From: Melioribacter sp.
GTDB taxonomy: Bacteria; Bacteroidota; Ignavibacteria; Ignavibacteriales; Melioribacteraceae
Assembly: GCA_003155655.1 (NCBI GenBank)
Contig: PMDS01000087.1
Coordinates: 13,866-55,104 of the forward strand
Reading direction: 5' to 3'
Length of the DNA stretch: 41,239 bases
The position numbers were made by a program, and so were the translations under genes. The notes beneath the pieces are model-generated. The model was not told where the DNA came from. It ran no database searches and worked only from the letters and a program-made list of their open reading frames with translations. This document shows, in pieces, positions 8,653 to 28,635 of the stretch; within the stretch, counting starts at the first letter, position 1; each line of letters starts with the position of its first letter.

Positions 8653-8662
8653 AAGTTTTAGC

Positions 8663-13306: not shown

Positions 13307-13362
13307 ATATTTAAAAGCTGCCGCATTCTTTTTTAAGCTTGCCACGGTGTACCGTAGCAACT

Positions 13363-13400
13363 AAACCTCCGAGGTCTCTCACTACTTCGGAGGTTTTCTT
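13363..13400 (+). terminator. rho-independent terminator
   Basis: AAACCTCCGAGGT (13363-13375) pairs with ACTTCGGAGGTTT (13384-13396) with one mismatch and is followed by TCTTT. It closes the type IX-secreted protein gene. Confidence 0.8.
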
Positions 13401-13441
13401 TAAAATTCATATATCACTTTCCTGGGCAGTCACAGCTTGCT

Positions 13442-13560
13442 AATGCTGTCAGGTTAACAAAAATAACTCATCCCCTTAGTCCCCTTCTCTTGATAAGAGA
13501 AGGGGAAACAGGGGTTGAGTTCATATGAATAATATACAGTGTAACTAACCTGACAGCATT
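13442..13560. mobile_element. 119-bp element with 15-bp inverted ends
   Basis: AATGCTGTCAGGTTA (13442-13456) is the exact reverse complement of TAACCTGACAGCATT (13546-13560). Inside is a second palindrome, CCCCTTCTCTT/AAGAGAAGGGG within ACTCATCCCC...GGGGTTGAGT. No target duplication was found. The end motif GCTGTCAG(G/A)TT also begins repeat P copy 2 at 13614, only 54 bases away. The remainder of the 13307-13884 spacer is the terminator and repeat P. Confidence 0.6.
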
Positions 13561-13615
13561 GGGGACAGTGGTGAGATCTTTGCCACTGTGGGTCCTTGCA
13601 ATTCACGTCTCAACG

Positions 13616-13870
13616 CTGTCAGATTGAATATCAATCGGTTGAAAAATCAATAAAAAATTATTGACTCCTTCCAATGTAAAAATTAAATTGAAAACGAATT
13701 TGAAATATTTTCGTGAATCCTCTTTTGCAGCGGGAATAAATAAAATAATATAGATTTCCTTTCCCTTTCCGGTATGAAACAGTTAGACAATCATCCTTAT
13801 TAAAATAGATAAGAAAAGCGCAATTGTATTTTTGTTACTCAAAAAAATCGAGTTCGGTTTAAGTAATAGT
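13616..13870 (+). repeat. repeat P, copy 2
   Basis: Second copy of the 255-bp repeat. TTGACT is at 13661-13666 and TAAATT at 13684-13689 (17-base spacing). The left hairpin GATTGA-ATA-TCAATC is perfect here. The right end runs to within about 15 bases of the AbiGi-like gene start, so any transcript from it would read straight into that gene. Confidence 0.75.
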
Positions 13871-13884
13871 TATATGCTAAAAAT

Positions 13885-14610
13885 ATGAATCCGAAAAAAA
13901 GAGAAGATTTCTCAAAATTTATTGTGCACTTAACCAGAGAATATGATAATGTCTCTGCAGAAGATAATCTTATAAATATTATCGATACTAAAAAAATAGA
14001 AGCAAGAAATTATCATTGTTTATTTGCACCACTTATTAAAAAATCCTCTTTTTCACTACCATTACAAAATAAATTTAAGACGGTATGTTTTACAGAAATC
14101 TCCTTAAATCAGATAAATAAAATAGTTGGGATAATCCCAAGAAGGAAAATTCAGCTTCAGCCTTACGGTTTAGTGTTTTGGCGTCATCATCTTCTAGAAA
14201 AAGGAGCTAATCCTGCTTTATACATAAACGGTAGTGGCGATTTAAAAAAATATCTATTAAGTAAATTTAATGAGCAGTTTAAAAGTATTAATACATTTAA
14301 GAGATTATCGGAAAATGATTGTTACTCTAATGAGATTACAAACTATTACTCATTGATTAATATTATTCAAAATAATCACGACTTTTCTTGGGAAAGAGAA
14401 TGGCGTTTCAATGGTAATTATAATTTTCTATATAAAGAATTAGTTGCCATCATAGTAAAGAATCCCGATTCATTTATTGATAACTGTAGTAATCATTTGT
14501 CGGTAAAGAAAATCGAATATATAAAAAGGATTCCAATAATAAATCCAAATTGGAATTACGAGGAAATAGTAGAATCATTTGCTTTATCTATCTGGCAATG
14601 TCGCATATAA
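13885..14610 (+). CDS. AbiGi / DUF2971-like protein
   Basis: A 241-residue soluble protein. It begins with KFIVHLTREYDN, then shows L-x-x-I-I-x-x-x-x-I-x-A, VCFTEISL, PYGLVFWRHHLLEKGANPALYI and WEREWRFNG. This order (FVHLTR, CFTE, YGLxF, P-x-x-Y, EREWR) resembles AbiGi and DUF2971-type proteins associated with phage resistance or toxin systems. The molecular activity of that group is not settled, and the assignment here is by eye. It starts at ATG 13885 without a strong ribosome site, just behind repeat P copy 2, and an attC-like site begins at its stop codon. No partner toxin or antitoxin is adjacent. Confidence 0.55.
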   Translation: MNPKKREDFSKFIVHLTREYDNVSAEDNLINIIDTKKIEARNYHCLFAPLIKKSSFSLPLQNKFKTVCFTEISLNQINKIVGIIPRRKIQLQPYGLVFWRHHLLEKGANPALYINGSGDLKKYLLSKFNEQFKSINTFKRLSENDCYSNEITNYYSLINIIQNNHDFSWEREWRFNGNYNFLYKELVAIIVKNPDSFIDNCSNHLSVKKIEYIKRIPIINPNWNYEEIVESFALSIWQCRI

Positions 14611-14792
14611 CCCATAACTCAAAGCGACTTCTTTAAACGTAGCGACATTTTACAAGTTTTAGAGTTACCTTGTAAAAGTAAATTGCTCTTTAAATGTAGT
14701 TAAGTAAACGAAGTATTTAATAAATATTGGCGTTGACTTTTCAGTGTTGTATTGTTGTTCTGGGTGGCGCTTTAGTTACCACGCTGTTATGG
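14605..14792 (+). other. attC-like site 7, complete
   Basis: The left end CATATAACCCATAACTCAAAGCG overlaps the stop codon of the upstream gene. The right arm GGCGCTTTAGTTACCACGCT ends in GTTATGG (14786-14792). The reverse complement of the right arm (CATAAC...GTAACTAAAGCGCC) aligns with the left (ATAACCCATAACTCAAAGCG), with an insertion as in attC bulges. The body carries TTGCTCTTTAAATGTAG and TAATAAATATTGGCGTTG. Confidence 0.6.
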
Positions 14793-14817
14793 CGAAAGAA
14801 AGCAAGGAATAGGTTAA

Positions 14818-15300
14818 ATGACTTATATTAAATTTTTATCCTCTTTGAGCAAGTATTTAGGTTATATGATTCTTAGTACATCTGGAATTGTTTATGTCCA
14901 ACGAATACTATTCGAACCCATAGAAAAAGTTGCAACATTAGCATTTACTGCAATTGCAACAATTGGAGCTCTTTCAGCATTATGCTTTTCTTATGTATCC
15001 TGCATTTTTAATGAAAATGATAAAAATTCTGGTATATATTCTGGCGAAAAATTTCTTCATTCTACTTTATTAATTATCCAGACACTATTTATTAAATATG
15101 TTGCAGATCAAGTTTTATTTCTCGAAATGGTAAAAACTGTTCCTTGGTTTAAAACAACTATCTCAATTATAACCGGTTCAATTATACTTTGGATTGGAAC
15201 TAGCGCTGTAACTTTAGCTGCACTAGGTTTTGACACTCTTAATAAAACACTTTGGTCACATTATGTTAAAAATGCAAGTAAGAATTTAAATAAAGAGTAA
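14818..15300 (+). CDS. hypothetical four-helix membrane protein
   Basis: A 160-residue protein with about four membrane segments (near 12-30, 38-58, 82-102 and 112-137), which is not a recognised family. It begins MTYIKFLSSLSKY and has a charged C-terminal tail (KNASKNLNKE). AAGGAAT precedes the ATG. It is alone between two attC-like sites, which fits a cassette gene. No motif suggests a function. Confidence 0.65.
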   Translation: MTYIKFLSSLSKYLGYMILSTSGIVYVQRILFEPIEKVATLAFTAIATIGALSALCFSYVSCIFNENDKNSGIYSGEKFLHSTLLIIQTLFIKYVADQVLFLEMVKTVPWFKTTISIITGSIILWIGTSAVTLAALGFDTLNKTLWSHYVKNASKNLNKE

Positions 15301-15306
15301 TTTACA

Positions 15307-15513
15307 CCCTAACAAGCAATTCAAAGCGACTGCTTTAAAAGTTGTAGCATTTGTGTAACAGTAAGGTTGCGGAGAAGAAATAAATTGCTTTTTAAGTATA
15401 GTGAACAAAATAAATTTATAAATAATTATTGGCGTTGGTTTTCTTCCGAAGGAATCTCTTCGGGAAAAGTTGCATTGCTGTTCTGGACTGCCAGTTAACG
15501 GCATCGTCCTTAG
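15307..15513 (+). other. attC-like site 8, near complete
   Basis: The left core CCCTAAC is followed by AAGCAATTCAAAGCGACTGC. The right arm is CTGGACTGCCAGTTAACGGC and the end is CGTCCTTAGG. The reverse complement of the right end (CCTAAGGACG) aligns with the left CCTAACAAGC. A hairpin CTTCCGAAGG...CTTCGGGAAAAG lies in the body. Right-end core bases deviate from GTTRRRY. Confidence 0.5.
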
Positions 15514-15538
15514 GTGTTTGATAAAACAGAGAATATCA

Positions 15539-16762
15539 ATGAAAATTAAATCATTTTATGAGCAAGATTTTTCAGACTTTACTTTTAGATTTTCAGATCA
15601 AATAAAAAGTGAGATTGAACAAAAAGGTAAAGAATACGTTCTTAATGTTAGTGAGGAAGAGTTTAAGAATTATCTAGTTAGTCAATTCGAACTTGTTCCC
15701 TTGGAAATAATAAAGGATACAGAAGAAATAAATAAGCCAAAAGTCCAATTAGAAGATTATGAAGATGGATTTGGGAGAAGGATGCAAAAAAGAGAAGTAT
15801 ATGTATTTACAGTATCATATTCATTTACTGGAACTTCTTTTTTGTTTCGATTAAAACCAAGCACATGGACAGTAACTACCAATGAAATAGAAGTTGATGA
15901 AACAAATAATATTGTCTCATTTAGTTTCAAGTTGTATGAAAAGGACCCACATAAATTTGAACAGACTAAAAATCATGAATATCATGATGCCTTTGTGAAT
16001 ATTACTAATCTTAATAAAGAAGTTGAAAATTGGAATCGACAAATCAAGGGTATGGTTGAGAATCAATTTAATTCCTTAAAAGAAAAGTATATAAAAGAAG
16101 ATGTATTTTTCCAAGCTATAAAAGTTAAAGTCAATACTGCAACAAAAACAATTTTTGATGCACCATCTGTTAAAAGAAAGATTATTCCACAATTACCTAA
16201 AGTAACAGATAAAATGTTTGTCTTTGAACCAAGTTTGAATGTTGGCATTTATGAAGATATTTTAAAAATACTTTATGAAACTGGCAAGAATCTTGAGAAG
16301 AAACCTTCACTGTATATTGGGAAAGGTGAGGAAGCTTTAAGAGACTTCTTCTTGGTATTCCTTGAAACGAGATATGATGGTGTTACTGCAACTGGTGAAA
16401 CATTTAATAGAGGTGGCAGAACTGATATTTTATTAAAAGATTCTAAAGACAGTTCTAACATCTTTGTTGCAGAATGCAAAATATGGCACGGTATTTCGGA
16501 ATATCAAAAAGCTATTGATCAATTGTTTGAAAATTATCTTACTTGGCGAGATTCTAAAGTTGCAATTATGATATTTGTTAAAAATAAAGAGTTTTCAAAA
16601 ATTCTCTCTGAAATAAAAGAAGATACACCTAAACATAAGTTGTATTCAAAAACAATTGGTAAGCGCGGCGAATCTTCATTTTCATATTTGTTTCATTTGC
16701 CACAAGACAATGATAAAAAGGTATTTCTTGAAATTATTCTTTTCCATTTTGATAAAGAATAA
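15539..16762 (+). CDS. PD-(D/E)xK nuclease-domain protein, possible stand-alone defence gene
   Basis: A 407-residue soluble protein. The N-terminal 240 residues are mixed alpha/beta and not recognised. The C-terminal part (about 255-400) reads as a restriction-endonuclease-like fold: helix EEALRDFFLVFLE (Glu265), GRTDILL (Asp296), then AECKIW (Glu312, Lys314), the D...ExK set needed for metal-dependent DNA cleavage. No methylase or specificity subunit is nearby, so it is not an ordinary restriction-modification gene. The frame extends upstream to 15470, but that part overlies attC-like site 8; ATG 15539 is chosen. It could act alone against invading DNA or be a repair nuclease. Confidence 0.7.
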   Translation: MKIKSFYEQDFSDFTFRFSDQIKSEIEQKGKEYVLNVSEEEFKNYLVSQFELVPLEIIKDTEEINKPKVQLEDYEDGFGRRMQKREVYVFTVSYSFTGTSFLFRLKPSTWTVTTNEIEVDETNNIVSFSFKLYEKDPHKFEQTKNHEYHDAFVNITNLNKEVENWNRQIKGMVENQFNSLKEKYIKEDVFFQAIKVKVNTATKTIFDAPSVKRKIIPQLPKVTDKMFVFEPSLNVGIYEDILKILYETGKNLEKKPSLYIGKGEEALRDFFLVFLETRYDGVTATGETFNRGGRTDILLKDSKDSSNIFVAECKIWHGISEYQKAIDQLFENYLTWRDSKVAIMIFVKNKEFSKILSEIKEDTPKHKLYSKTIGKRGESSFSYLFHLPQDNDKKVFLEIILFHFDKE

Positions 16763-16764
16763 AT

Positions 16765-16950
16765 GCCTAACCTGTTTTCCAAGCCGACCGCTTTAAACGT
16801 AGCGGCATTTGTAGGGTATAAATATGTGTTGCAAAAGTAAGTTGCTCTTTAAGGTAGGTTATTCTAAGAAATATTTTTGTAAATAAAAAATTGTTGCAGC
16901 TAATTGGCATTGTTATTCAGGGCTGCCGGTTAGTGGCAAAGTCGTTATGA
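16765..16950 (+). other. attC-like site 9, complete
   Basis: GCCTAAC (16765-16771) is an exact RYYYAAC core. The right end is GTTATGA (16944-16950). The left arm CTGTTTTCCAAGCCGACCGC aligns with the reverse complement of the right arm (GACTTTGCCACTAACCGGC) with small bulges. Body block TTGCTCTTTAAGGTAGGTTATTC matches site 1 closely. Confidence 0.65.
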
Positions 16951-16995
16951 TTATCATATTGTATTTATTATAAATATAATGAGATATATTTAAAA

Positions 16996-18057
16996 ATGTT
17001 AAAATTGTTTCCATACATTTATGGACCTGAGAAAAGTATTGATGTTTTGAAACAGACAGATCAATATTTAAATACTAATTCTGAAATTAAAAATAAAATT
17101 GAGAAACTAGGGTGGATCTATCAAAGTATAGGCAAATCAATTCCTCAAACTACTGAGAATTTTTGGTCTGGTCATTATTTCCCTTATGTTGAATCTTGGA
17201 ATGAATTGCAAATATCGTTTAATCTTGCGGTTTTTGGTTTATATAAGCAAGCTTTTACATCTTTAAGAAGTTCGCTTGAAGTAGGAATGCTCTCAGTTTA
17301 TTACAATATAAACGATGATGGGCATAAAGTTGTGAAAAGTTGGTTGAGATCAAAAGATTCTTGGGATGCAAATACACCTAAAACAGAAAAAATTTGGAAA
17401 ATTCTTAAGTCCAATGAAAATATTGTAAGATACAATGATTTATTTAAACTTGAAGACGAATTTAATTCCTTGAGCTTTTTACATAATTATGTTCATACAA
17501 AAGGATATAAATTTTCAAATGAATTAGGAATTCCGAAATCAAATTGCCAAACTTTTGAAGAGGATATTTTTATAAAATGGTTAGATACTTACCAAAAGGT
17601 AATTTCTCTTGTTGTAACATTACACATTTTAAAATATCCTATTTCTATTATCGAATATGATTGGAATAGAAAGATAGGAATAGACAATCCGTTCCCAGTT
17701 CTAGAAGTATTTGAGATCGAAATAATAAAAGAGCTACTACCAGAAGAATGTTTAACCGAATTAACGAGAATTGCTGAGAATGACGAGAAGACTCAAAAGT
17801 TATATAACTATATCCGCGCCTTACCAGATATGACCGAGGCAGAGGAAGGACTTCAAATTATTCATTTAGATAAAATGTTTATTGAACACGGAGAAGGTTT
17901 CATCGAATGGGAGAAGAAGGAAAGAAATATTATGGAAAAATGTAGCGATGAAGCAAAAGCCAAAATATCAAACCGAATTGAAAAAATTAGGAAATGGGCT
18001 ATTGAGAATAATATGATGAAGCCGCTGCAAGAAAGATTAAAAGAGAAGGGTTTATAG
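16996..18057 (+). CDS. hypothetical all-helical protein
   Basis: A 353-residue soluble, mostly helical protein not assigned to a family. Notable stretches are SLRSSLEVGMLSVYY, SFLHNYVHTKG and a highly charged C-terminal coiled region (about 290-350, Glu/Lys-rich). The R-S-x-x-E ... H-x-Y-V-H arrangement is seen in some HEPN-like or abortive-infection-associated proteins, but a clear R-x(4-6)-H HEPN motif is absent. It is alone between attC-like sites 9 and 10, next to the nuclease cassette. No ribosome site is evident before ATG 16996. Confidence 0.55.
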   Translation: MLKLFPYIYGPEKSIDVLKQTDQYLNTNSEIKNKIEKLGWIYQSIGKSIPQTTENFWSGHYFPYVESWNELQISFNLAVFGLYKQAFTSLRSSLEVGMLSVYYNINDDGHKVVKSWLRSKDSWDANTPKTEKIWKILKSNENIVRYNDLFKLEDEFNSLSFLHNYVHTKGYKFSNELGIPKSNCQTFEEDIFIKWLDTYQKVISLVVTLHILKYPISIIEYDWNRKIGIDNPFPVLEVFEIEIIKELLPEECLTELTRIAENDEKTQKLYNYIRALPDMTEAEEGLQIIHLDKMFIEHGEGFIEWEKKERNIMEKCSDEAKAKISNRIEKIRKWAIENNMMKPLQERLKEKGL

Positions 18058-18074
18058 ATAACTGATAGAGATAC

Positions 18075-18272
18075 ACATAACCCGCAACTCAAAGCGAATG
18101 CTTTAAACGGTGCAGCATTTGACAGATTTTTTAAGCTCACCACAGCCTGTCCCGCGCTTTTTGCGGGGACGTCTTCTGTTGGGGGACGTTTTTTGCCGGG
18201 GGTTAACGGATGACGGATGGGCTGCCTCCGCAAAAAAACTGTCGGGGGAACTAATATCGGCAAACGTTAAGC
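18075..18272 (+). other. attC-like site 10, with a repeat R body; right edge of the array
   Basis: The left end ACATAACCCGCAACTCAAAGCG is almost identical to site 7. The right end GTTAAGC (18266-18272) is an exact GTTRRRY. A copy of repeat R (about 18135-18250, CCACAGCCTGTCCCGC and GACGTTTTTTGCCGGGGG) fills the middle. This is the last such site before the ABC genes. The remaining spacer to 18423 is AT-rich with no recognised feature. Confidence 0.55.
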
Positions 18273-18423
18273 TTAATAAATAAATGTCTGGGAATTAAAA
18301 TAATTTTAGCATTCATTTTTCTTTTTTTTGTAAATTATATATGCAAAGGGAAATTCTATAATCATTCCATTGTTAAATTTCATAAATATATTTATTTATT
18401 TTAAAAGATAGGCGGCATCAGTT

Positions 18424-19908
18424 ATGTTTTACTGGTTCATTATACAAAATATTAAATCGATAAAGAGGTCGCCTGATTTCAGCAGGAAATTAATCGTTAA
18501 TATTATTTTCAGTGTCTTAATGCTTCTGCTGGCGCTGGATATTATAATTCTTGGTATTTTCCTCTTTAAAATAATTAAAGAACATTATCCGGATATTGAT
18601 CCGGTAGTTGTTTTTAATGGAGGAATAATTTTCTATCTATTATCTGAGACTATATTCCGTTTAGTGTTTCAAAAAATCAGGTCGTTGGATGGAAAACCAT
18701 ATCTTCTTTTAAATGTAAAAAGAAAAGAAATAGCGCATTTTATTCTATTAAAAGTTCCTGCAACAATTATCAACATTTTCCCTTTATTTATTTTAATCCC
18801 TTTTTTCATTAACGGTGTACTGCCCAATCACACTGCTGCCGGGTCTTTCGCATGGCTTATTTCAATATTGATGCTGGTTTTATTTAATAATTACCTCATT
18901 AATTTTATAAAAATGAAATTTGCTAAAAATCCTGCATTTGCAACAATATCTGCGCTTGTTTTTATTTGTTGTTTTCTTGTTCAATATTTTAATTTTTTTT
19001 CTTTTACTTCTTTAAGCAAATTAATATTCGGATTGGTATTTACTTATCATGCTCTTAGTGCAATTCCTCTGTTAATGTTCCTATCTGTATATTTTTTAAA
19101 TTATAAATTTCTAATAAGTGGTTTCTATATTGACCAAATTAAAATGGAAGGGAAAAATAAAAATTATTTTGGTGATCTTTCATTCCTTAAAAATTTTGGT
19201 GAAACCGGGGACTTAATTGCTTTAAGCATTAAACTAATGCTTAGAAATAAGAGGACAAAAACAAATCTCTTGATGCCCATCATAGCTCTTTTTTATGGTA
19301 TTTTAATTTATTCAAATGGTACTTTTAAAGGTGGTAATATCCCCGGGCAGTTTTGGATGATGTTTGCAGGGACATTTATAACCGGGCTTTTTGTTATGAT
19401 GTATGGAGTAAATTCTTTTAGTTATGAAAGCAACTATTTCAGCTTTCTGCTTACCAATAAAATTGATTTGTTTATATTATTGAAATCTAAATACTATCTC
19501 ATGCTTCTAATATCTATTCCTATTTATATACTTTCTTTGTTTTATGTTCTGTATGGAGTTAGAATCGTTTTTATTAATACTGTTATGTTTCTGTTTACTA
19601 TAGGAATAACCCCCTTTTTACTTCTTTACATGTCTTTATTCAACAAGTCAAAATTTGACCTCAGCTTATCTCCATATAGCAATCAAGGGAAAGGAACAAA
19701 TCAATTTATTTCAGTATTTACAATACTATTAATTCAACTTATAATTTTTTATCCACTCAGAATATTTTTGGGCTGGGACAATTGCCTGGTAATATTCGGG
19801 CTACTGGGAATTCTCGGGATTATTTTTAATAATCAAATTTTGAAGATCATTTTAAAACAATTCTACAATAAGAAATATCTTATGTCTGAAGGTTTCAGAC
19901 AAACTTAA
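18424..19908 (+). CDS. ABC transporter permease, DUF5687-like
   Basis: A 494-residue inner-membrane protein with roughly 10-12 membrane segments spread over its length. It begins FYWFIIQNIKSIKRSP, and has LRNKRTKTNLLMP at about 275, a conserved type of cytoplasmic segment. This matches Bacteroidota exporters of the DUF5687 type, which pair with one ATPase. The next gene, 25 bases on, is that ATPase. The cargo is unknown. The start ATG 18424 is in good context for a membrane start (MFYWF). Confidence 0.75.
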   Translation: MFYWFIIQNIKSIKRSPDFSRKLIVNIIFSVLMLLLALDIIILGIFLFKIIKEHYPDIDPVVVFNGGIIFYLLSETIFRLVFQKIRSLDGKPYLLLNVKRKEIAHFILLKVPATIINIFPLFILIPFFINGVLPNHTAAGSFAWLISILMLVLFNNYLINFIKMKFAKNPAFATISALVFICCFLVQYFNFFSFTSLSKLIFGLVFTYHALSAIPLLMFLSVYFLNYKFLISGFYIDQIKMEGKNKNYFGDLSFLKNFGETGDLIALSIKLMLRNKRTKTNLLMPIIALFYGILIYSNGTFKGGNIPGQFWMMFAGTFITGLFVMMYGVNSFSYESNYFSFLLTNKIDLFILLKSKYYLMLLISIPIYILSLFYVLYGVRIVFINTVMFLFTIGITPFLLLYMSLFNKSKFDLSLSPYSNQGKGTNQFISVFTILLIQLIIFYPLRIFLGWDNCLVIFGLLGILGIIFNNQILKIILKQFYNKKYLMSEGFRQT

Positions 19909-19933
19909 TTTAATAATTTTCTATAGGTTAAAC

Positions 19934-20635
19934 ATGGTTGAAGTTTCTAATCTTACTAAGAAATATAATAATGTAACTGTGCTTGATGTGCCGAATTTGA
20001 AGATAGAAAAAGGTGAAAGTTTTGGATTGGTGGGAAATAATGGCGCAGGTAAAACTACATTATTTTGCCTTATGCTGGATATCATTAAAGCAAATAATGG
20101 AGCAGTATTGTCAAAAGGACGTGATGTTAAAATTGATGAGAAATGGAAAAGCTATACCGGATCTTATCTTGATGAAAGTTTTTTAATTGATTATTTAACC
20201 CCTGAAGAATACTTTGAGTTTATCGGCGGACTTCATAATTTAAATAAAGAGGAAGTTGAAGAGAGACTAAAGCAGTTTCACGATTTTTTTAACGGAGAAA
20301 TACTCGGTACAAAAAAATTCATTAGGAATCTTTCTAAGGGCAATCAGAAAAAAGTCGGTATAATTGGTGCATTGCTTCCGCAACCAGAAATATTAATTTT
20401 GGATGAACCTTTCCCCCATCTTGATCCATCTTCGGTAATTAAACTGAAGAAAATATTGAAGACTTTAAGCGCGAATAAAGTTACAATCATCATTTCAAGC
20501 CATGACCTGAATCATGTTACAGAAATATGCAAAAGGATTGTTCTTCTTGAAAAAGGAAAAATAATTAATGATATTCAATCAGACAAAAATGTTTTGACAG
20601 AGCTTGAAAAGTATTTTTCAATGTCTGTTGAATAA
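19934..20635 (+). CDS. ABC transporter ATP-binding protein
   Basis: A 233-residue ATPase. Walker A is GNNGAGKTT (about 37-45), signature LSKGNQKKVG, Walker B ILILDEPFPHLDP, and the switch His is in ISSHD. It powers the permease encoded upstream; an export or envelope role is likely from the DUF5687-type partner. TAGGTTAAAC precedes the ATG. No substrate-binding or periplasmic partner gene follows, so it is a simple two-gene exporter. Confidence 0.93.
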   Translation: MVEVSNLTKKYNNVTVLDVPNLKIEKGESFGLVGNNGAGKTTLFCLMLDIIKANNGAVLSKGRDVKIDEKWKSYTGSYLDESFLIDYLTPEEYFEFIGGLHNLNKEEVEERLKQFHDFFNGEILGTKKFIRNLSKGNQKKVGIIGALLPQPEILILDEPFPHLDPSSVIKLKKILKTLSANKVTIIISSHDLNHVTEICKRIVLLEKGKIINDIQSDKNVLTELEKYFSMSVE

Positions 20636-20651
20636 TAAAAAGGATTATTAA

Positions 20652-20868
20652 CTCACGTTACGCAAAAACGGTAATTACAACAATTGATTTTAAAATTTCA
20701 TTGCAAAGCAAGTTTTCATATGTTCGAGTTAATTATGAAGATGTAAGCTGATAACGAAATTACCTGCCCATTGAACAAAGAGTTGGGCTAAAGCCCATAT
20801 ACTTTTTACGTAGTTACACTCCACGTCCTGAAGGACGTGGTTATAAATTAAATTACGCGTAATGTAAG
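20652..20868. mobile_element. MITE copy 3 (217 bp)
   Basis: The left end is CTCACGTTACGCA. The right end GCGTAATGTAAG has two changes. Target duplications are TTATTAA at 20645-20651 and 20869-20875. Because the flanks are direct repeats of a different 7-mer from copies 1 and 2, they are true duplications and not part of the inverted ends. Internal hairpins GGGCTAAAGCCC and CACGTCCTGAAGGACGTGG are intact. Confidence 0.85.
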
Positions 20869-20885
20869 TTATTAATTATTTTTAA

Positions 20886-20960
20886 GTTCCCCACAGCTTG
20901 TCCAGTTCTCCGATCGCTAATGGATAAGGGATCGAAGAAGCGTAGAATAGCCCTGTCTAC
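20886..20960. repeat. repeat R, partial copy
   Basis: TTCCCCACAGCTTGTCC, then CGATCGCTAATGGATAAGGG and GAAGAAGCGTAGAAT, similar to copy 1 (2577-2770). It lies between MITE copy 3 and the 3' end of the fic gene. The rest to 21065 shows nothing recognisable. Confidence 0.5.
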
Positions 20961-21065
20961 CATTTGGGGAAATACCCAAAGACTTTAGCATAATGTTCGC
21001 TATGTAATATCGCTGTCACATTTATTTTGATGAACGGAGACCTCACAAAAGGTTGCTTAAGTATT

Positions 21066-22520
21066 TCAATCTATGATTAAGCGTTTTCCATCATCAGGTT
21101 CGTAAAAAGCATTATGTGATTCCAAATGATTATAGAGATCATCATAATTATCATAATGGAGAGACTCACTAAATGTGTGTGCTCTGCTCAACATATTGAC
21201 GTATGGAATTGGGTCTTTTTGATTTGTTAATCTTTTTAATGTGAGCAAATAGTCAACATGATATACGGTTGGAATAATAATTTTGCATTGGTTTCGATTT
21301 ACCAATTCTGCATTCATCATTACTCTTGCAATTCTTCCGTTTCCATCTTCAAACGGATGTATCTCACTGACTAAAAACATCATATAAGTGGCTCTGGCAA
21401 AAGGATTTGTTAATGCTTTGCAATATTCAAATCCACGAACTAAGGTTCCTCGAACAAGTTTATAATCGACAAAAAATGTATTACCGGCTCTATTATTTCT
21501 TTCTTTGAATTGACCAGGGTTTTTATCAATGCGGGATGAAAGTAAAACCTTATGACGGGATTGAAGTATATCCAGAAATTCATTTTCATTTGAAGGAATG
21601 ATTTTAATCTCGTTTCTGTTAGAAACTATTTGATATGTGCCCAGAACATCGTGAGAATCATCACTACGTGCAGGCAAAGGAATTCCGGTATCAATTATTC
21701 TTTTAGCTTCGGACACTTCAAAGACAGTTCCTTCAATATAGTTGGAAAAATAAGCTTCAAAGAAAGCGTAGTTTCTAAATGAATTTGGAGTAGAATTATT
21801 TTCTGGCCGATCCTTAAATTCATTGTTGTGGAGGTAGGTAAATAAAATCTCAAATAGTTCTATTCTGTTTCTATCATAAGGGAGACCGGCTGCTCGAGAA
21901 AGAGCTAAATCGGATTTCAAAATTTTAGAAGGTTTTGTTGTAAATAATGCACCGATTATTTTATTAAGAAATTCAAATCCTTTTTGCATTTCTAAAATTT
22001 GTGACAATACTCTTGCTCTATCGCGAATGCGATTCAATCCGTCTTCACCATTAATTCTTAGAATGTCATCCAATTTTTCTTCGATCTGGGGAATGCTTAA
22101 AGATTTAGAATCGGGACCAGCTTTTTTTGTTATTTGAAGATTTTCAAGAAACGCTCTTTCTTTGGAAGAGGCGTAAAGCGCTCCAAATAATTTGTTATCT
22201 CCTTCGACGGGACCTTTTCCTTCTAGAAAATTGATTGTTACACCGGGCAAATTTATTTTTTTTGTATAGGAGTAAGTAACAAATATTTGATTTGTACTTG
22301 TGGGTTTGAATTCAAAAGCTGAGCGATGGCTTAAAACAGAACCGGGATACAAACTTCCCAGGATTTCCAGTATATTTCTTCTAACAATTTCAGAAGGTTC
22401 TTCTTCTAAATTTGTAGTATAAATCCTCGGAGCTATCTTTATAATTTTCTTCTCTTGAATCATTTTAGAGATTTTGTAATTCTCTTGCCGGTTGGCAGAA
22501 GCAAATATTAGTTCACTCAT
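21066..22520 (-). CDS. Fic-domain protein with AbiEi-like N-terminus
   Basis: A 484-residue protein. Residues about 10-190 look like an AbiEi-type antitoxin/regulator: a winged-helix start (YKISKMIQEKKIIKIAPRIY), VLSHRSAFE and a following fold as in type IV antitoxins. The Fic domain (about 210-440) has the core HPFEDGNGRIAR (His388, Asn394, Arg396), which transfers AMP or another nucleotide part to proteins. SNYIEG (Ser259-Gly264) before it is the (S/T)xxxE(G/N) inhibitory helix, so it is self-inhibited (class II layout). It is transcribed leftward. Five TTCTGGAAAAT-type repeats upstream suggest self-regulation by the N-terminal domain. No separate antitoxin gene is adjacent. Confidence 0.88.
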   Translation of the reverse strand: MSELIFASANRQENYKISKMIQEKKIIKIAPRIYTTNLEEEPSEIVRRNILEILGSLYPGSVLSHRSAFEFKPTSTNQIFVTYSYTKKINLPGVTINFLEGKGPVEGDNKLFGALYASSKERAFLENLQITKKAGPDSKSLSIPQIEEKLDDILRINGEDGLNRIRDRARVLSQILEMQKGFEFLNKIIGALFTTKPSKILKSDLALSRAAGLPYDRNRIELFEILFTYLHNNEFKDRPENNSTPNSFRNYAFFEAYFSNYIEGTVFEVSEAKRIIDTGIPLPARSDDSHDVLGTYQIVSNRNEIKIIPSNENEFLDILQSRHKVLLSSRIDKNPGQFKERNNRAGNTFFVDYKLVRGTLVRGFEYCKALTNPFARATYMMFLVSEIHPFEDGNGRIARVMMNAELVNRNQCKIIIPTVYHVDYLLTLKRLTNQKDPIPYVNMLSRAHTFSESLHYDNYDDLYNHLESHNAFYEPDDGKRLIID

Positions 22521-22527
22521 TGTAAAA

Positions 22528-22682
22528 ATTTTCCAGAATAATTATTTATTGGTATATAAATTGTAATAATTTTCCAGAATAAGCAAGTTTACTCGTAATA
22601 TTTTCCAGAAAAAATATATTTGAAGAAATTTTCCAGAATAAGCGGACTACAGAGTGGAATTTAGGAATATTTTCCAGAATAA
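22528..22682 (-). promoter_or_regulatory. five iterated operator-like repeats upstream of fic
   Basis: ATTTTCCAGAATAA occurs at 22528, 22569, 22600 (ends AAAA), 22628 and 22669, all in the same orientation, spaced 41, 31, 28 and 41 bases. On the fic strand the unit reads TTATTCTGGAAAAT. The nearest copy ends 8 bases before the fic ATG and would cover its ribosome site. The obvious candidate binder is the AbiEi-like domain of the Fic protein. They are too short and regular to be a CRISPR. Confidence 0.7.
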
Positions 22683-22748
22683 ACATAGAATAATGCACAA
22701 AATTGTTTTGTTTTTGTGCATTGGATTCAATCAATGCACAAATATCTA

Positions 22749-22815
22749 AGCTCGCCACAGCTTGTCCCGCTTGTCCCGACGTCTTCTGTCGGAAGACGTT
22801 TTTTGTCGGGGATGT
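22749..22815. repeat. repeat R, copy
   Basis: AGCTCGCCACAGCTTGTCCCG then GACGTCTTCTGTCGGAAGACGTTTTTTGTCGGGG. The GACGTCTTC/GAAGACGTTTTTT part forms a terminator-like hairpin. It lies between the fic operators and repeat P copy 3. The rest of the 22521-23147 spacer is accounted for by operators and repeats. Confidence 0.6.
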
Positions 22816-22852
22816 ACTAGAAGATGTTTTGATTTCAATTCATCTTCAAAGT

Positions 22853-23110
22853 TGCCAGATTGACTATCAACCAGTTGAAAAATCACTAGAAAAATTATTG
22901 ACTACTTCCAATGTAAAAACTAAATTGAAAACGGAGTTGAAATATTTTCGTGAATCCTCTTTTGCGACGGGAATAAATAAAATAATATAGATTTCCTTTC
23001 CCTTTTCGGTTTGAAACAGTTAGACTATCATCGTTATTAAAATAGATAAGAAAAGCACAATCGTATTTTTGTTACTCAAAAAAATCGAGTGCAGTGTAAG
23101 GAATAGTATG
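22853..23110 (+). repeat. repeat P, copy 3, upstream of the helicase module
   Basis: Third copy. TTGACT is at 22898-22903 and TAAATT at 22921-22926. The left end reads TGCCAGATTGACTATCAACC. The right end ACTCAAAAAAATCGAGTGCAG is almost the same as in copy 2. It ends about 37 bases before the GTG of the nuclease-helicase gene. Confidence 0.75.
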
Positions 23111-23147
23111 CTTACTAATCAGTTCCATTAAATACTAAAATATTAAA

Positions 23148-26100
23148 GTGAAAAAATATTCTGCTAATTATTCTTTTAGTAATCACAATTTTGTGATCCA
23201 GAATTTAAATGGAGAAAGAATCACTAATGAATATCTTGCTGGAATTTGTATTTTAAAAAACATACTACAGAGAGGGAAACCAACACTTTTATCAAAATAT
23301 TTACAATCAAAAATAGGGACTATTCATAAATATAATGAATTTAAGCGACCACATGCTTTAATTGATAATGAATTGCCCAAATGGGAAAGAATTATCAGAG
23401 GTGATGATAAAGGTAATTACTTCCCAGCCAAAAAGTTTTATGAGGAATTGATTCCCAAATATTTTCCAAATCATAAATTTATTCAACAATTAATTATACC
23501 AGAAATTCCAATAAATGAAATAACTCAAATCTCCGTTAATGAATTTGAAAATCAACAAGTCGACTTTTATTTGCCACCAGCCTTTTTAGTTATCGAGATT
23601 GATGGTGGGCAACATCGATATAACGCAAACGATAAAAGACGTGACCAACATTTAGAAAAATATGGAATATCGACAGTGAGAATTTCAACTGATGACCTAG
23701 AGATCGAAAACGATGCTTTTCAAAATAAGATTGATTCCATTAAAAAAAGAATTGATAAAATAATCATTAGAGAAAGTCAACCAAGAAAAAAAGATGCGAT
23801 TTTTATTTCTCTTGAAAACTATAAAGAGGTTTACGAAAAAGGAATTAATCCAACTAGCCCTTATTATATTGCGACTGCAATAATGCGATTTCAAATACTC
23901 ATTTTAGACCTTTTAGAAAATGGTAAATTAGATTTCTGCAATGAATGGGAAATTGAATTATTGGAAAGAGACATTAGTAATTTTGCATACGAGTCTATTG
24001 AAGATTTGTTTTTATGGTTTGGACATATTTTTAAGTTGCAAAAAATATCTTTCACAAAACCAAAATATTCACTGAGAAGTGTAAAAACAAAAGTTGAATT
24101 TTCTAAAGAATCTAAAGTTATCAAGATTGATTTCAGTCTACTAAAAAGATATACTGATGAATTTCAAACTGAACCCGATATAATATTTGTAAGAACTGAT
24201 TATCTTGATAGACATTTATATTTCAAGAAGGGAAATGGTAATAATTTAGTATTTCATTCCTTTTTAGACTATGATTATTTCCGTATATCGACAACAACGC
24301 CCCTTGTGTATAATCTGCGATTCGGAGATGATAACTCAGATTCTCAATCCTTACTATTTTTATTGGATAATATATTTCTACAAGAAACTCAAAACTTGAC
24401 TTTCAATGAAGGTCAACTATCGATTATCGCAAATGCACTTTCAAGAAAAGATACAATAGGTCTTCTACCAACTGGTAGTGGAAAATCTGTTTGTTATCAA
24501 TTAGCTGCAATTTTACAGCCAGCAATAAGTTTTGTAGTCTGCCCTATTAAATCTTTAATGTACGATCAAAAAGCTGAATTAGATATTGTCTATTTTTCAA
24601 GAGTCAACAACATTACCAGCGATGATGACGGGGAAGACAAAGAAAGGATTCAAAATGAATTTGCTTATGGAAAATACTTATTCATTTTTATTTCACCGGA
24701 ACGATTTCAAGTAAAACCATTTCGTAAGTATTTTATTAAAGTAGCAGAATCTTTTAATATAGCTTATGCAGTTATTGACGAAGTCCATTGTCTTTCAGAA
24801 TGGGGGCACGATTTTCGGACTGCATATTTAAACCTATCAAATACAATTCAGAAATTATGCTCAAATTCTAATTTTATAGGATTAACTGCAACCGCATCAA
24901 TAAATGTAATCAAGGATATTCAAATAGAGTTCGGAATAGAGCAAGAAAATATTAAGACTTTAGTAGATTATACTAGAAAAGAATTGGATTTTGAAGTTAT
25001 TGACGATGGTAACAATAAAGAAGAAGTATTATTACAACAGCTTACTTTATTGGATGAAAGAATTTCTCTATTTAACCAAAATAATACAGAATCCAAATGT
25101 GGTATAATTTTCACACCCACTGTAAATGGCAAACAAGGCTGTTACCCATTATCCTTGAGATTAAAAAATTACTTCGAAAAAGATGTTAGATACTTTTCCG
25201 GAACTACACCAAAAATTAATAACAACCCAATAATGACAGAAGAAGAATATGATGAACAAAAGAAGTGTACTCAAGATGATTTCAAAAAGGATAGGTTTCA
25301 TTTATTAACGGCAACGAAAGCATTTGGAATGGGGATTAACAAGGGGAATATTTACTTTACATTTCATTATGGAATTCCAACCTCAATGGAAGCCTTGTAT
25401 CAAGAAGCTGGGAGAGCTGGTAGGGATAAGTATAAGTTTAGTAGTGAAAAAGCTAAATGCTATGTTTTATTGACAAAAACGACTAATAATGATATGCTAA
25501 ATGAAGTATGGCAGAGGGAAACACCCTTCTCAAGATTCTTGGACACCGTTTGTGATACAACTGGCAATATTGCTATGCAAAAAATATTATCTGCAAATGA
25601 AAAACGGAGTTACCTTAATCGGGGTTATCAAATAAGCTATGGCTTGATCAGAAATATTAATGGTGATATTAACACACAATTATTTCTTTTTGCAAGCAGT
25701 CTTTCTATAATAAAAGAAGAATTTCAGTTAATTAAAAATCTCCATTTAATGTATTCCATCCCTTACAAAATGAATGTAACAATTAATGGAGCAACTCTTA
25801 ATACTAAAAAGGCATTTCTTGAAAAGGCAATTTATCGGTTAAGCCAACTTGGAATAATATCTGATTGGACAATCGAAAATTTCTTTGGAAGTGGAATATT
25901 TATAGTTGACTACACTAACTATTCAGATGAATCGATTAAACAATCATTATTAAAGACAATTACTAGGTATGATGCTGAATTTTCATATTCCGCCATCGAG
26001 ACCGAAGAAAAATATTCTAATTATAAAAAAATATTTAATGCTCCTGAAGGATATTCAGAAATAGACAAATATATTTTAATACTTCTTCAATGGTCTTATG

Positions 26101-26750
26101 ATAATTTTGCATACAACCGCCGGCAATCCCTTAAGAACATTTACGAAAACTCTTGTGCTTTAGCAGATGGTATAATTAGTAAAGAAGAATTCAAGATAAG
26201 ATTAGAAAACTATTTTAAATTCACTCAGTCCAGTTTTATTCTTCAACACATTGCAGATAATTCCAGTGAGTTTGAGCATTGGTTTGAAGTCTTCTATCAA
26301 ATTGAAAATAATAAAAGCACAAATAAATTTATTACTCAGAGACAACAAGAAAGTTTAAGAGATAATCTTAGCCGCTTTCTAGAAAGTTATATGTATAATA
26401 CCGGATTGGATTTAATAAGTGGTCTTTTAAGATTATTGCTTGATGATTACGAAAACGTCGACGGCAAAAATCGTTTTGAAAGTTCATTAGAACTAATAAA
26501 AAAATTCAGACAAGAGGAGATAGAATTTATTACTTCAAATGTTCTAATTATTGGTAAGAATCTTAACAAGAAAAATAAAAACTTACTAGCAATGTCATTA
26601 TATAAGTATTTCCCTTCATCGAAAATGCTTTATAAAATTTATAAGGAAATCGAAGATTATTATTCTTTGAAAGTCATTCTTGAAATCACAAATGAAAAAT
26701 TAGAAACAATAAATAAAAGGATTTCTAATGGATTTAGAAAAGCTGGATAA
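23148..26750 (+). CDS. nuclease-RecQ-type helicase fusion, candidate defence protein
   Basis: A 1200-residue protein. Residues about 105-205 are a DUF559/Vsr-like nuclease: QVDFYLP (Asp139), VIEIDGGQH (Glu150, Asp152), then RRDQHLEKYGI. Residues about 415-780 form a superfamily 2 RecQ-type helicase: Walker A LPTGSGKS (441-447), VVCPIKSL, DEVHCLSEWGHDFR, GLTATAS, ATKAFGMGINK and QEAGRAGRD. The last 420 residues are helical and unassigned; no RQC zinc cysteines or HRDC domain are evident. Housekeeping RecQ is about 600 residues and lacks the nuclease, so a phage- or plasmid-defence role is inferred. It starts at GTG 23148 behind repeat P copy 3 with a weak ribosome site. Its end overlaps the next gene by 23 bases. 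Confidence 0.85.
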   Translation: MKKYSANYSFSNHNFVIQNLNGERITNEYLAGICILKNILQRGKPTLLSKYLQSKIGTIHKYNEFKRPHALIDNELPKWERIIRGDDKGNYFPAKKFYEELIPKYFPNHKFIQQLIIPEIPINEITQISVNEFENQQVDFYLPPAFLVIEIDGGQHRYNANDKRRDQHLEKYGISTVRISTDDLEIENDAFQNKIDSIKKRIDKIIIRESQPRKKDAIFISLENYKEVYEKGINPTSPYYIATAIMRFQILILDLLENGKLDFCNEWEIELLERDISNFAYESIEDLFLWFGHIFKLQKISFTKPKYSLRSVKTKVEFSKESKVIKIDFSLLKRYTDEFQTEPDIIFVRTDYLDRHLYFKKGNGNNLVFHSFLDYDYFRISTTTPLVYNLRFGDDNSDSQSLLFLLDNIFLQETQNLTFNEGQLSIIANALSRKDTIGLLPTGSGKSVCYQLAAILQPAISFVVCPIKSLMYDQKAELDIVYFSRVNNITSDDDGEDKERIQNEFAYGKYLFIFISPERFQVKPFRKYFIKVAESFNIAYAVIDEVHCLSEWGHDFRTAYLNLSNTIQKLCSNSNFIGLTATASINVIKDIQIEFGIEQENIKTLVDYTRKELDFEVIDDGNNKEEVLLQQLTLLDERISLFNQNNTESKCGIIFTPTVNGKQGCYPLSLRLKNYFEKDVRYFSGTTPKINNNPIMTEEEYDEQKKCTQDDFKKDRFHLLTATKAFGMGINKGNIYFTFHYGIPTSMEALYQEAGRAGRDKYKFSSEKAKCYVLLTKTTNNDMLNEVWQRETPFSRFLDTVCDTTGNIAMQKILSANEKRSYLNRGYQISYGLIRNINGDINTQLFLFASSLSIIKEEFQLIKNLHLMYSIPYKMNVTINGATLNTKKAFLEKAIYRLSQLGIISDWTIENFFGSGIFIVDYTNYSDESIKQSLLKTITRYDAEFSYSAIETEEKYSNYKKIFNAPEGYSEIDKYILILLQWSYDNFAYNRRQSLKNIYENSCALADGIISKEEFKIRLENYFKFTQSSFILQHIADNSSEFEHWFEVFYQIENNKSTNKFITQRQQESLRDNLSRFLESYMYNTGLDLISGLLRLLLDDYENVDGKNRFESSLELIKKFRQEEIEFITSNVLIIGKNLNKKNKNLLAMSLYKYFPSSKMLYKIYKEIEDYYSLKVILEITNEKLETINKRISNGFRKAG

Positions 26751-27255
26751 TGCAATAAATGAATTGCATAATCAATCGAGTAATCTAGTTGAATTTAATA
26801 AGGTGTATTCTGAAATAGGTAAATTAAAAAAGGATATTTCAGACAATCTAATTTCATTGGAGCATAATAATTCTAACTTATCAAGTATTATCCAAGAAAT
26901 AAAAAAGCATCTTGATGAATCTTTTAAGCAGCTCGAAAAACTTGAATCTGTTTTGAATACTAGGATAAAAGAGATTTATGAGGATAATAAAAAATTTCAG
27001 AAAGAATTGGACAGTTCAATATTTTCTCGTTTAGAAAAACACAAATCTGATATTCAGCTTGAAATAAGAGATGAAGGGAAACAAATTCAAAGAGTTTTTG
27101 AATCTACACTTACTTCTAGTTTCAATTCAATGACTTCAAAGATCGACAAGAGATTTCAAGAACAAAAGAAACTATATAAGAAACAGAATGTTTTGATTCT
27201 ATTACTGATACTTTTATCTATCGTATCAATAGGGATACACTATTTTATTAAATAA
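26728..27255 (+). CDS. coiled-coil protein with C-terminal membrane anchor, helicase partner
   Basis: A 175-residue protein. Residues about 1-150 are almost continuous heptad-rich coiled coil (Leu/Ile with Lys/Glu). Residues about 154-172 (VLILLLILLSIVSIGIHYF) form one membrane helix, leaving only IK outside. It is thus a tail-anchored cytoplasmic coiled coil with no enzymatic domain. The ATG lies inside the helicase gene (AAAGGATTTCTAATG), so the two are translationally coupled and very likely work together, for example by tethering or sensing at the membrane. No family was recognised. An attC-like site follows. Confidence 0.75.
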   Translation: MDLEKLDNAINELHNQSSNLVEFNKVYSEIGKLKKDISDNLISLEHNNSNLSSIIQEIKKHLDESFKQLEKLESVLNTRIKEIYEDNKKFQKELDSSIFSRLEKHKSDIQLEIRDEGKQIQRVFESTLTSSFNSMTSKIDKRFQEQKKLYKKQNVLILLLILLSIVSIGIHYFIK

Positions 27256-27278
27256 ATATTCGCATATGATAAAGGTAA

Positions 27279-27420
27279 GCATAACTAATACCCCAAGCCG
27301 AAAGCGTTTTTAAGCCCGCCACAGCCTGTCCCGCTTGTCTGCCTCCGTTAGCTAACAGATTGTTGGGCACCTAAAAAGAATTGCGTTTACCCGGCAATGT
27401 CTTTATGACGGGTTAAAAAT
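27279..27420 (+). other. attC-like site 11, degraded, with repeat R body
   Basis: GCATAACTAATACCCCAAGCCG then AAAGCGTTTTTAAG resembles the left ends of sites 9 and 10. A repeat R copy (27313-27370) follows. The right side CCCGGCAATGTCTTTATGACG resembles the site 9 right arm. If real, the helicase module was also a cassette. Confidence 0.35.
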
Positions 27421-27986
27421 CTGAACGTGCCTGCCGAAGTGTAATTCTTCAGTATTTAGGTAACACAGGAGTTATATTTTATTAATACACTGGTGTACAA
27501 AAAAAGTTGTGTAACCCTTCGGCTACGCTCAGGACAAGTTTTTTGAACAGTTCAAAATTATTTTTTAAAGATGTTTTGAATATTCGCGAAGGACCTCACC
27601 GCGACCCTCTCCCCCGCAAAAAGCACGGGACAAGCTTAAAAAAAGGAGAGGGAGAAAACGGGAAAATGTCTCGTCCTGAAAAAAGTTCTTTGACATACTG
27701 ACTATTCCATTGATGCCTAATGGTGAAAAAATGGGACAAAAATTGGATAAAAACAGGGTGAAAATGGGGTGGAAATTGGGATAAAAAATGGATGAGAATT
27801 GGTGAGAATTGTTGGAAAGTTTAGGACCAGTATTAAAAGGAGAATTGATATTTTTTGCAAAAAAGGTTCTGAAAAAAATCATAAGAATGACAAAAAATCC
27901 TGAAGTTTACGAGACTCAGAACCGTTACCGAATTACTGAAGTAGTACACAGAAGCTGGTAAGCTTGTCCATTAGGAAATAATTCCC
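27421..27986. other. non-coding spacer rich in repeats
   Basis: Contains CCCTTCGGCTACGCTCAGG (about 27517), a palindromic block CCTCACCGCGACCCTCTCCC ... GGAGAGGG (27590-27652) of the same kind as 6370-6406 and 13469-13520, and a purine-rich stretch (27725-27800) of loose ATTGGGATAAAAA-like units. Reading frames here on either strand are repeat translations. No gene was recognised. Confidence 0.6.
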
Positions 27987-28078
27987 ACCACATTTGAAAC
28001 AAAAGTGCCATTTTTATTGTTTAATTAAGTGATTCAAAAATTACTTTTTTTATTGTTCGAAAAAATTCTATTTTATAC
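27987..28078 (+). repeat. direct repeat D, right copy
   Basis: CACATTTGAAACAAAAG to CGAAAAAATTCTATTTTATAC matches 3490-3575. It lies directly upstream of the Cys-rich gene at the head of the metal-efflux operon. TTGTTC then TATACA at 15-base spacing could serve as a promoter reading right. Confidence 0.6.
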
Positions 28079-28098
28079 AAGAAAATTGAAAAGAAATA

Positions 28099-28512
28099 TT
28101 GATAATAAGTAAAATACATAAATTAAAAGTCGTAACTCTTTTACTGCTTTCGTTACACTTAACAGCATTTAATATTGTGCTGCTGTGCAATCCTGCAAAA
28201 TGCTGCCATACCTTTAAGCAAAGATCGGTTAAACATTGCTGCTGCAAAGATGAAAATGACGGCAGTTGTAATACTGAATTGAATACCAAAAATATTTTGA
28301 AATTTTCAAGCTGCAATTGTGTTCACCAGACTTCCGATGATAACTCATTTACTTTTTACAAGAGTTATGAAATTCATAAATACGAAATGATGAGCCTGGT
28401 CAACCTGCAAATTACTCAGCCGGTTGAAAAAATTAAAGTTGAGTTATCTGAAAACGAATTCAGAATAAATAGTCCCCCTATATATCTTTCTTTTTCATCT
28501 CTTCTAATTTGA
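28099..28512 (+). CDS. Cys-rich exported protein of the efflux operon, HYC_CC_PP-like
   Basis: A 137-residue protein starting at TTG 28099. It has a signal peptide/anchor (about 8-30) and a Cys/His-rich centre (CCHTF, KHCCCKDE, SCN, SCNCVHQ), suitable for binding copper or similar metals. The C-terminus INSPPIYLSFSSLL has a Pro pair. Small proteins with this Cys-pair and Pro-pair layout lie next to cusA in Bacteroidota (HYC_CC_PP family), which supports the call. Their role is unproven. The ribosome site is weak. cusA follows 123 bases later. Confidence 0.6.
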   Translation: MIISKIHKLKVVTLLLLSLHLTAFNIVLLCNPAKCCHTFKQRSVKHCCCKDENDGSCNTELNTKNILKFSSCNCVHQTSDDNSFTFYKSYEIHKYEMMSLVNLQITQPVEKIKVELSENEFRINSPPIYLSFSSLLI

Positions 28513-28635
28513 TCTTACTTCCCTTTTTCAAGTAAGGATTGGAATTAATCCAGTCGTCGAAAATCTCTATCTATTAAGAATGCTTGTGGATTCAATTTCA
28601 AAGTAGAGAATTTAAAATCAAAAAAAGAGAAGTAT

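Follow-up and report, generated by a model that had tools for sequence, protein, structure and literature searches.

A RecQ-type helicase-nuclease gene and a coiled-coil, mostly tail-anchored partner gene as a candidate two-gene defense module in Melioribacter sp. and its relatives

Among the described systems closest to the locus analyzed here are RqlHI and PsyrTA, each of which combines a RecQ helicase with a DprA-like partner; RqlH carries a PRTase domain on which its toxicity depends, and this toxicity is restrained by RqlI (PMC4670107). An earlier record of the helicase-PRTase-DprA association appears in PMC5512222, and PMC9122126 describes protection against T7 and lambda by DprA with a PRTase and identifies the antitoxins of shosTA, syrTA, and rqlHI as DprA homologs. 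In Hachiman, a helicase serves as a genome-integrity sensor for a nuclease (PMC12278908), and DruE-DruH is another two-gene helicase system (PMC13316683). Here, a stretch of 41,239 nucleotides (nt) from Melioribacter sp. (assembly GCA_003155655.1, contig PMDS01000087.1, positions 13,866 to 55,104; hereafter the window, meaning this entire stretch) was analyzed computationally, with emphasis on two overlapping genes encoding a 1200-amino-acid (aa) nuclease-helicase with a long tail and a 175-aa coiled-coil protein. This pair is interpreted, with a confidence clearly better than even, as a two-gene accessory defense module against invading DNA, composed of a membrane-tethered RecQ sensor/motor with a nuclease and a coiled-coil partner. 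The available portions of the literature on RqlHI/PsyrTA, ShosTA, Hachiman, and DruE-DruH make no mention of such a partner.

Like PsyrTA and RqlHI, the pair joins a RecQ-type helicase to an effector domain and a small partner gene, but its partner is of a different kind: no PRTase domain was matched by Pfam in the 1200-aa protein at E ≤ 0.5, no DprA-like gene was found adjoining the pair (the only DprA match of this genome is on contig C18, the window being on C110), and the PADLOC PsyrT model matches only aa 411 to 796 of the window protein. A likeness to ShosTA is seen in an Escherichia coli relative (L031), in which a ShosA-like DprA gene accompanies a HAD and ShosT-like front fused to the helicase, whereas the PRTase toxin and DprA antitoxin are absent from the operon in the window; ShosTA itself is not known to have a helicase or a coiled-coil partner. 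Zorya, in which a membrane-anchored coiled structure (ZorAB, with a long tail) works with the ZorD helicase-nuclease, embodies a similar idea, but no MotA/MotB-like motor was found in the pair; the window partner matches ZorA models at no more than 17.3 bits, no ZorB or ZorD model was listed, and partners match the coiled-coil parts of ZorA models only, and weakly. Hhe places a helicase and a Vsr/DUF559-type nuclease in one chain, as in the window protein; its helicase is of a different type, however, and it is not known to have a membrane partner. Hachiman likewise couples a genome-integrity sensor helicase to a nuclease (PMC12278908), but there HamA is a separate gene, and no HamA or HamB model is among the 20 and 15 PADLOC families listed for the two window proteins at E ≤ 0.1. 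Neither PADLOC nor a literature search, which had most subscription journals and bioRxiv outside its scope, yielded a name or description of the two-gene system. An earlier sequence-only reading of the window had been unable to match the pair to a named system, which holds for the two-gene unit but not for all of its parts, since PADLOC files the helicase as "DpdF" and the E. coli relatives contain ShosA- and ShosT-like parts.

The two genes that this reading placed at 23148-27255, overlapping by 23 bases, were both confirmed as open reading frames (ORFs; Table 1), and their translational coupling via the overlap is likely. The GTG start of the larger gene is supported by the presence of the same initial peptide in close relatives. 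Its domain assignments were also borne out. The DUF559/Vsr-like nuclease, recognized from D139, E150, and D152, carries the characteristic residues D...ExDGxxH and is matched by PF04480 (DUF559) over aa 137 to 195 (28.3 bits versus a cut-off of 20.6); in an alignment of 11 sequences D139, E150, D152, Q155, and H156 are invariant, together with K446, D544, and E545 of the helicase core. The latter is of the RecQ type, with Pfam matches to DEAD (aa 421 to 590, 69.3 bits) and Helicase_C (aa 646 to 760, 40.0 bits) and a score of 221.0 bits for the NCBIfam RecQ family model TIGR00614 (cut-off, 219.8), and RecQ structures rank first among its structural matches (Foldseek, 6crm, 3e-11; VIA-align, 7aud, Z 15.6, root-mean-square deviation [rmsd] 3.8, 310 aligned). 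The full-length AlphaFold2 model, built with nine sequences, is of moderate quality (mean predicted local distance difference test [pLDDT] 72.9), and its first RecA-like domain is poorly predicted.

The long unassigned tail reported by the sequence-only reading remains so, with no Pfam family above its cut-off over approximately aa 775 to 1200. The AlphaFold2 model of the tail, at a mean pLDDT of 80.1, is better than that of the full-length protein. It has no Foldseek match at E ≤ 0.001, and VIA-align returned mostly common winged helices with Z up to 7.1; given these two results, the fold of the helical arm is not claimed to be new. A check for the RQC winged helix gave a weak winged-helix-like match at aa 854 to 925 (Z 7.1, 62 aligned), and a sequence search of solved structures found nothing convincing for the tail or the N-terminal part.

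A profile of tail residues 775 to 1168 was used to define a family, linking the window protein to more divergent proteins of 1100 to 1740 aa. Close relatives, full length or nearly so, are encoded in Algoriphagus, Plebeiobacterium, Cyclobacterium, Brumimicrobium, and three metagenome-assembled genomes (best segments 48 to 65% identical), and 42% relatives reside on plasmids of E. coli, Klebsiella, and Raoultella (eight records with at least 80% covered). Among the 37 family helicases examined, a pattern search found the RGxPT-type motif in 33, while the RecQ-type zinc cysteines after motif VI (C-x8-30-CxxCxxC) were found in none; of 30 ordinary RecQ loci in which motif VI is present, 15 show these cysteines and the other half do not. 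The tail was detected in 23 of 395 sampled genomes of the phylum, representing 16 of 170 genera (two of the matches, G183 and G165, are weak or short-frame), and was absent from all 31 ordinary RecQ loci, the two tail-bearing loci among the 33 fetched being from family genomes (G211 and G426). On the basis of this absence from ordinary loci and presence in a small share of genomes, the tail-bearing helicase is accessory and not housekeeping. A housekeeping RecQ, which the reading had listed as a possible match of the C-terminal part, is ruled out by the 31 tail-free loci and by a separate RecQ-like match in the same genome, on contig C48. In 11 same-genus relatives, the full-length query matches helicase cores only (best E 7e-30). 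The locus is present in 7 of 5,426 complete E. coli genomes, and in two or more of the seven the helicase gene is broken by an insertion sequence (IS1 at 11095-11792 in L032; IS5 at 13818-14798 in L072), as might be expected for a costly accessory gene. Four of 11 viral-contig loci (L073-L076) carry the tail, the other seven lacking it by the tail profile; neighbors on these four contigs, read by eye, are capsid-like, integrase-like, and terminase-like. Matches were obtained in 24 phage records, none covering 80% of the query.

The pairing proposed for the window recurs in other genomes. In all 34 readable family loci, the next gene on the same strand encodes a strongly heptad-periodic protein of 114 to 501 aa; the start of this gene lies anywhere from 98 nt ahead of to 44 nt beyond the point where the helicase gene, or its last piece, ends. 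This count leaves aside three loci cut by contig ends (L038, L089, and L100), retains the split helicase gene of L040, and includes the enterobacterial copies once (L031). A single C-terminal membrane helix ends the partner in 30 of the 34 loci, and the beginning of such a coiled-coil protein is visible in two of the three contig-end loci (L038 and L100). For each of the 36 partners or partner starts, no more than 1 in 200 shuffles equaled the heptad signal; 42 of 215 similar-sized genes of these loci, partners included, reached 0 of 60 shuffles. A background criterion combining length (<300 aa), one helix located at the C terminus, and a distance within 60 nt selected 28 of 36 family pairs versus 1 of 61 other pairs of genes from these loci. 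Not every locus counts as independent, since L104 and L105 share 93% identity and L076 and L099 share 63%. The single background pair so selected is curious in itself: on a Rhodothermus plasmid (L085), near the RecQ pair and oriented toward it, the gene for a 1031-aa protein (1501-4596) overlaps that for a 184-aa tail-anchored coiled coil (4562-5116). The larger protein has an "ARGRPN" motif and AAA/UvrD-like matches that stay below threshold, and this second pair is possibly a sister system with another helicase.

The partner in the window proved to be the 175-residue coiled coil with a C-terminal membrane helix (aa 155 to 171) that had been described: its heptad periodicity ahead of the helix has a power of 23.0 against a shuffle mean of 6.2, with none of 1000 shuffles as high. 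A lysine-rich stretch before the helix points to a cytoplasmic location of the coiled coil. Across the family, the partner is conserved as an architecture and a position, and its homology rests on these two features because sequence identity between distant clades is low. When used alone as a query against plasmids, it had no match; its matches to LeoBC, ZorA, Mitofilin, and others are weak coiled-coil matches, which were treated as composition, and beyond such matches no PADLOC model fits it. The partners of L086, L094, and L095 have in common a basic C-terminal end with aromatic residues (RPR..WxGxFG-like, by eye), which might be another way of membrane binding.

The part preceding the helicase core varies within the family. 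A pattern search detected the nuclease motif in 30 of 37 members, one of which (L075) has a changed last residue, and inspection by eye added L076. The enterobacterial proteins have an additional front part ahead of the nuclease in the same chain, comprising HAD (Pfam, 67.4 bits) and a PRTase-like part (PADLOC ShosT match of 29.6 bits, with a PRPP-loop-like motif by eye), and an upstream overlapping gene encodes DprA (Pfam, 181.3 bits; PADLOC ShosA, 227.2 bits). An extra front part is also present in L038, as judged by alignment only, with just the end of an upstream gene lying on that contig. In L100 and L095, the front is a protein kinase (176.5 and 111.9 bits, respectively) and no nuclease motif was found, while L103, L106, and L075 have methyltransferase-like fronts below cut-offs and L107 has perhaps an exonuclease-like front (13.1 bits versus a cut-off of 24). 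A constant motor, tail, and partner combined with an exchangeable front would resemble known defense systems in which effectors are swapped.

Several relatives lie among defense genes. In E. coli ET846, the locus has a type I restriction system on one side and MZA on the other, and an integrase lies close by. Type I restriction genes also adjoin the locus on plasmids, though not on pXJW9B263-1. Other defense-type neighbors include AbiEi/AbiEii (L034), a type II methyltransferase, MTase_II (L086), BrxB (L106), RT (L076), and a PDC-S02/restriction-like protein (L096). At E ≤ 1e-15, 151 PADLOC families were matched by 131 neighbors versus 19 by 127 control proteins, an excess that indicates a direction and not a size because the models are redundant and only 25 of the 151 families were listed. 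The neighbors were drawn from 26 of the family loci, with viral contigs and very short ones left out; four of 135 listed genes were removed, namely two for DprA, a fragment of a broken helicase, and an ORF running antisense to the L088 partner. The controls came from 20 arbitrary regions of 11 family genomes.

Taken together, these data suggest that the pair is likely to have a role in defense, a conclusion held more firmly than the membrane-tether and nuclease mechanism that would underlie it. In this mechanism, the RecQ-like motor, 3'-5' by homology, would double as the sensor, loading on abnormal DNA (ends, gaps, or forks made by phage or plasmid) and translocating along it, while the tail, with its probable winged helix and helical arm, may bind DNA and/or the partner and the DUF559 nuclease would cut the DNA handled by the motor. 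The partner, made in step with the enzyme via the overlapping genes, would be fixed in the inner membrane by its C-terminal helix with the coiled coil in the cytoplasm, and may hold the enzyme near the membrane, the site of foreign DNA entry, and/or keep it inactive until triggered. Relatives would keep the motor, tail, and partner, with the effector in front replaced or added to. The broader proposal, at slightly less than even confidence, is that of an unnamed superfamily in which a RecQ sensor-motor tethered by a tail-anchored coiled coil carries a swappable front, namely a nuclease, a nuclease with HAD-PRTase under DprA, a kinase, or a methyltransferase-like domain. Helicase-nuclease immunity is a known kind; the distinctive points are the conserved, mostly tail-anchored partner and the exchange of effectors. 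The candidate defense system with a tethering partner put forward by the sequence-only reading is thus supported by co-occurrence, by a patchy distribution on islands and plasmids, and by some defense neighbors, but the family is not restricted to the nuclease effector that it had assumed.

Several observations weigh against this interpretation. Six of the 37 members have no recognizable nuclease motif, and four partners (L086, L094, L095, and viral-contig L074) have no detectable anchor, so that a helix tether is not universal; in L095, the anchorless partner stands behind the second piece of a broken helicase gene. Between clades the partner is poorly conserved, with two invariant columns in the 11 aligned sequences. 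Four of ten neighbors picked by eye had no match (L102, two in L093, and L105), and redundancy among models inflates the PADLOC tally, which is one of families and not of distinct defense genes: two genes account for the matches to many RT models. Within the window, the surroundings of the pair offer a Fic gene and an AbiGi match below the cut-off but otherwise no clear named defense system. The defense role is inferred here from sequence analysis.

An alternative explanation, judged unlikely, is that of a guarded toxin as in PsyrTA, RqlHI, and ShosTA, in which the large protein would be genotoxic and restrained by the partner or by DprA until phage infection. The E. coli relatives, with their ShosA-like DprA gene (227 bits) and fused ShosT-like part, point in this direction, as do the PRTase-dependent toxicity of RqlH and the antitoxin role of DprA homologs noted above; the window, by comparison, has no DprA gene and its helicase protein no PRTase match. 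This explanation is also compatible with the membrane-tethered defense module, a restrained effector being a defense design as well. Membership in the Dpd 7-deazaguanine DNA-modification restriction system, as its DpdF component, is scarcely credible. It is raised by the PADLOC model PDLC02868 "DpdF", which matches aa 418 to 1168 of the window protein (388.5 bits for the protein) as well as the nuclease-helicase-tail of the E. coli relative, and which thus represents the same helicase family, including nuclease and tail, under a label that refers to Dpd systems. Several other PADLOC "DpdF" models match the RecQ core only, however, the NCBIfam DpdF equivalog NF041063 scores 136.7 bits versus a cut-off of 550, and no DpdA (TGT-like) gene is on the window contig, the two TGT-domain genes of the genome being on contigs C33 and C125. 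The equivalog score and the absence of a TGT-domain gene from the contig rule out Dpd membership in this genome; the helicase is already in PADLOC under a label that does not fit here.

It is improbable that the pair is a DNA repair or recombination helper of mobile elements and not a defense module. A RecQ-type core would suit such a helper, as would the occurrence on plasmids, on viral contigs beside capsid-like and terminase-like genes, and near plasmid-type genes in L034 (by eye), but the distribution is patchy (all 11 same-genus relatives match helicase cores only), restriction, MZA, AbiE, or BREX genes flank several loci, and the swap of a nuclease for a protein kinase is hard to reconcile with repair. 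It is more improbable still that the membrane protein is the effector, acting by pore formation or depolarization, and the helicase merely a sensor. The retention of a single hydrophobic C-terminal helix in most complete partners (30 of 34) while the front part varies could be read in this way; a single bare anchor placed at the very C-terminal end, after a coiled coil, nevertheless fits a tether better, four partners have no anchor, and none of the 11 aligned sequences departs from the nuclease residues.

The pair lies within an approximate species-specific insertion (Table 1), the flanks of which (3572 and 28605) are only 0.7 to 3.5 kb apart in five of seven same-genus regions fetched from the 11 relatives; in the other two, the left flank was lacking or the region ended. 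At the same insertion site, L140 has about 3.5 kb. The insertion also holds a beta-lactamase-fold protein, a LytTR two-component pair, a Por-secreted protein, and an ABC/DUF5687 exporter. An examination of flanking repeats found no transposon-like boundary. The Fic gene that the sequence-only reading placed nearby is indeed present (PF02661, 44.9 bits), and its AbiGi-like neighbor was found as a match just below the Pfam cut-off (20.2 versus 22.4 bits); the miniature inverted-repeat transposable elements it reported were not established, one 29-nt word (TAAGCYCGCCACAGCYTGTCCCGCTTGTC-like) recurring at 20883, 22747, and 27311, with two copies flanking the gene pair. Five copies of ATTTTCCAGAAWAA (TTCNNGAA core) occupy positions 22528-22682, immediately upstream of the point (22520) where the Fic gene begins, and 0 of 100 shuffles had five or more copies. 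This array looks like an operator for the Fic gene, and the Fic protein, with its weak AbiEi-like N-terminal match, could bind it. A strong PADLOC MzaA match at 36885-37742 would have linked the window to MZA but is misleading, the gene encoding a sigma-70 factor.

Table 1. Positions of the gene pair, its parts, and neighboring features in the window
Feature	Position	Strand	Basis
Nuclease-RecQ helicase-tail protein, 1200 aa, GTG start	23148..26750	+	ORF, Pfam, NCBIfam, homologs
N-terminal segment, aa 1-90, with RGxPT-type family motif, aa 42-46	23148..23417	+	Motif pattern
DUF559/Vsr-like nuclease region, aa 117-210; D139, E150, D152, Q155, H156	23496..23777	+	Pfam, invariant residues, modeled strands and helices
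Connecting region, aa 211-400	23778..24347	+	No Pfam match; aa 221-350 block with pLDDT 80-91
RecQ-type SF2 helicase core, aa 418-775; K446, DEVH 544-547, QEAGRAGR 752-759	24399..25472	+	Pfam, NCBIfam, alignment, structure matches
Probable winged helix, aa 854-925	25707..25922	+	VIA-align Z 7.1, rmsd 2.2, 62 aligned; weak, common fold
C-terminal tail, aa 926-1200, mostly helical	25923..26747	+	AlphaFold2 model
Overlap of helicase and partner genes, 23 nt	26728..26750	+	ORFs; overlap or near-abutment also in relatives
Coiled-coil partner with C-terminal tail anchor, 175 aa, ATG start	26728..27255	+	ORF, transmembrane helix, heptads, partners in relatives
Transmembrane helix of partner, aa 155-171 of 175, four residues from end	27190..27240	+	Hydropathy
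Approximate species-specific insertion holding the pair, ~25 kb	3573..28604	.	Flank comparison with same-genus regions
AbiGi antitoxin-like protein	13885-14610	+	Pfam 20.2 bits, cut-off 22.4
Fic protein with weak AbiEi-like N-terminal match, 15.6 bits (PADLOC)	21066-22520	-	PF02661, PADLOC

If the proposed interpretation is true, a system has gone unreported whose helicase is filed as "DpdF" in a defense catalogue and whose partner has no model, even though its tail is present in 23 of 395 sampled genomes of one phylum and it is also carried on enterobacterial plasmids. The pair would then exemplify RecQ-type sensing at the membrane, and the family would connect ShosTA-like DprA toxins with helicase-nuclease immunity in evolution, a link that is directly testable in E. 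coli.

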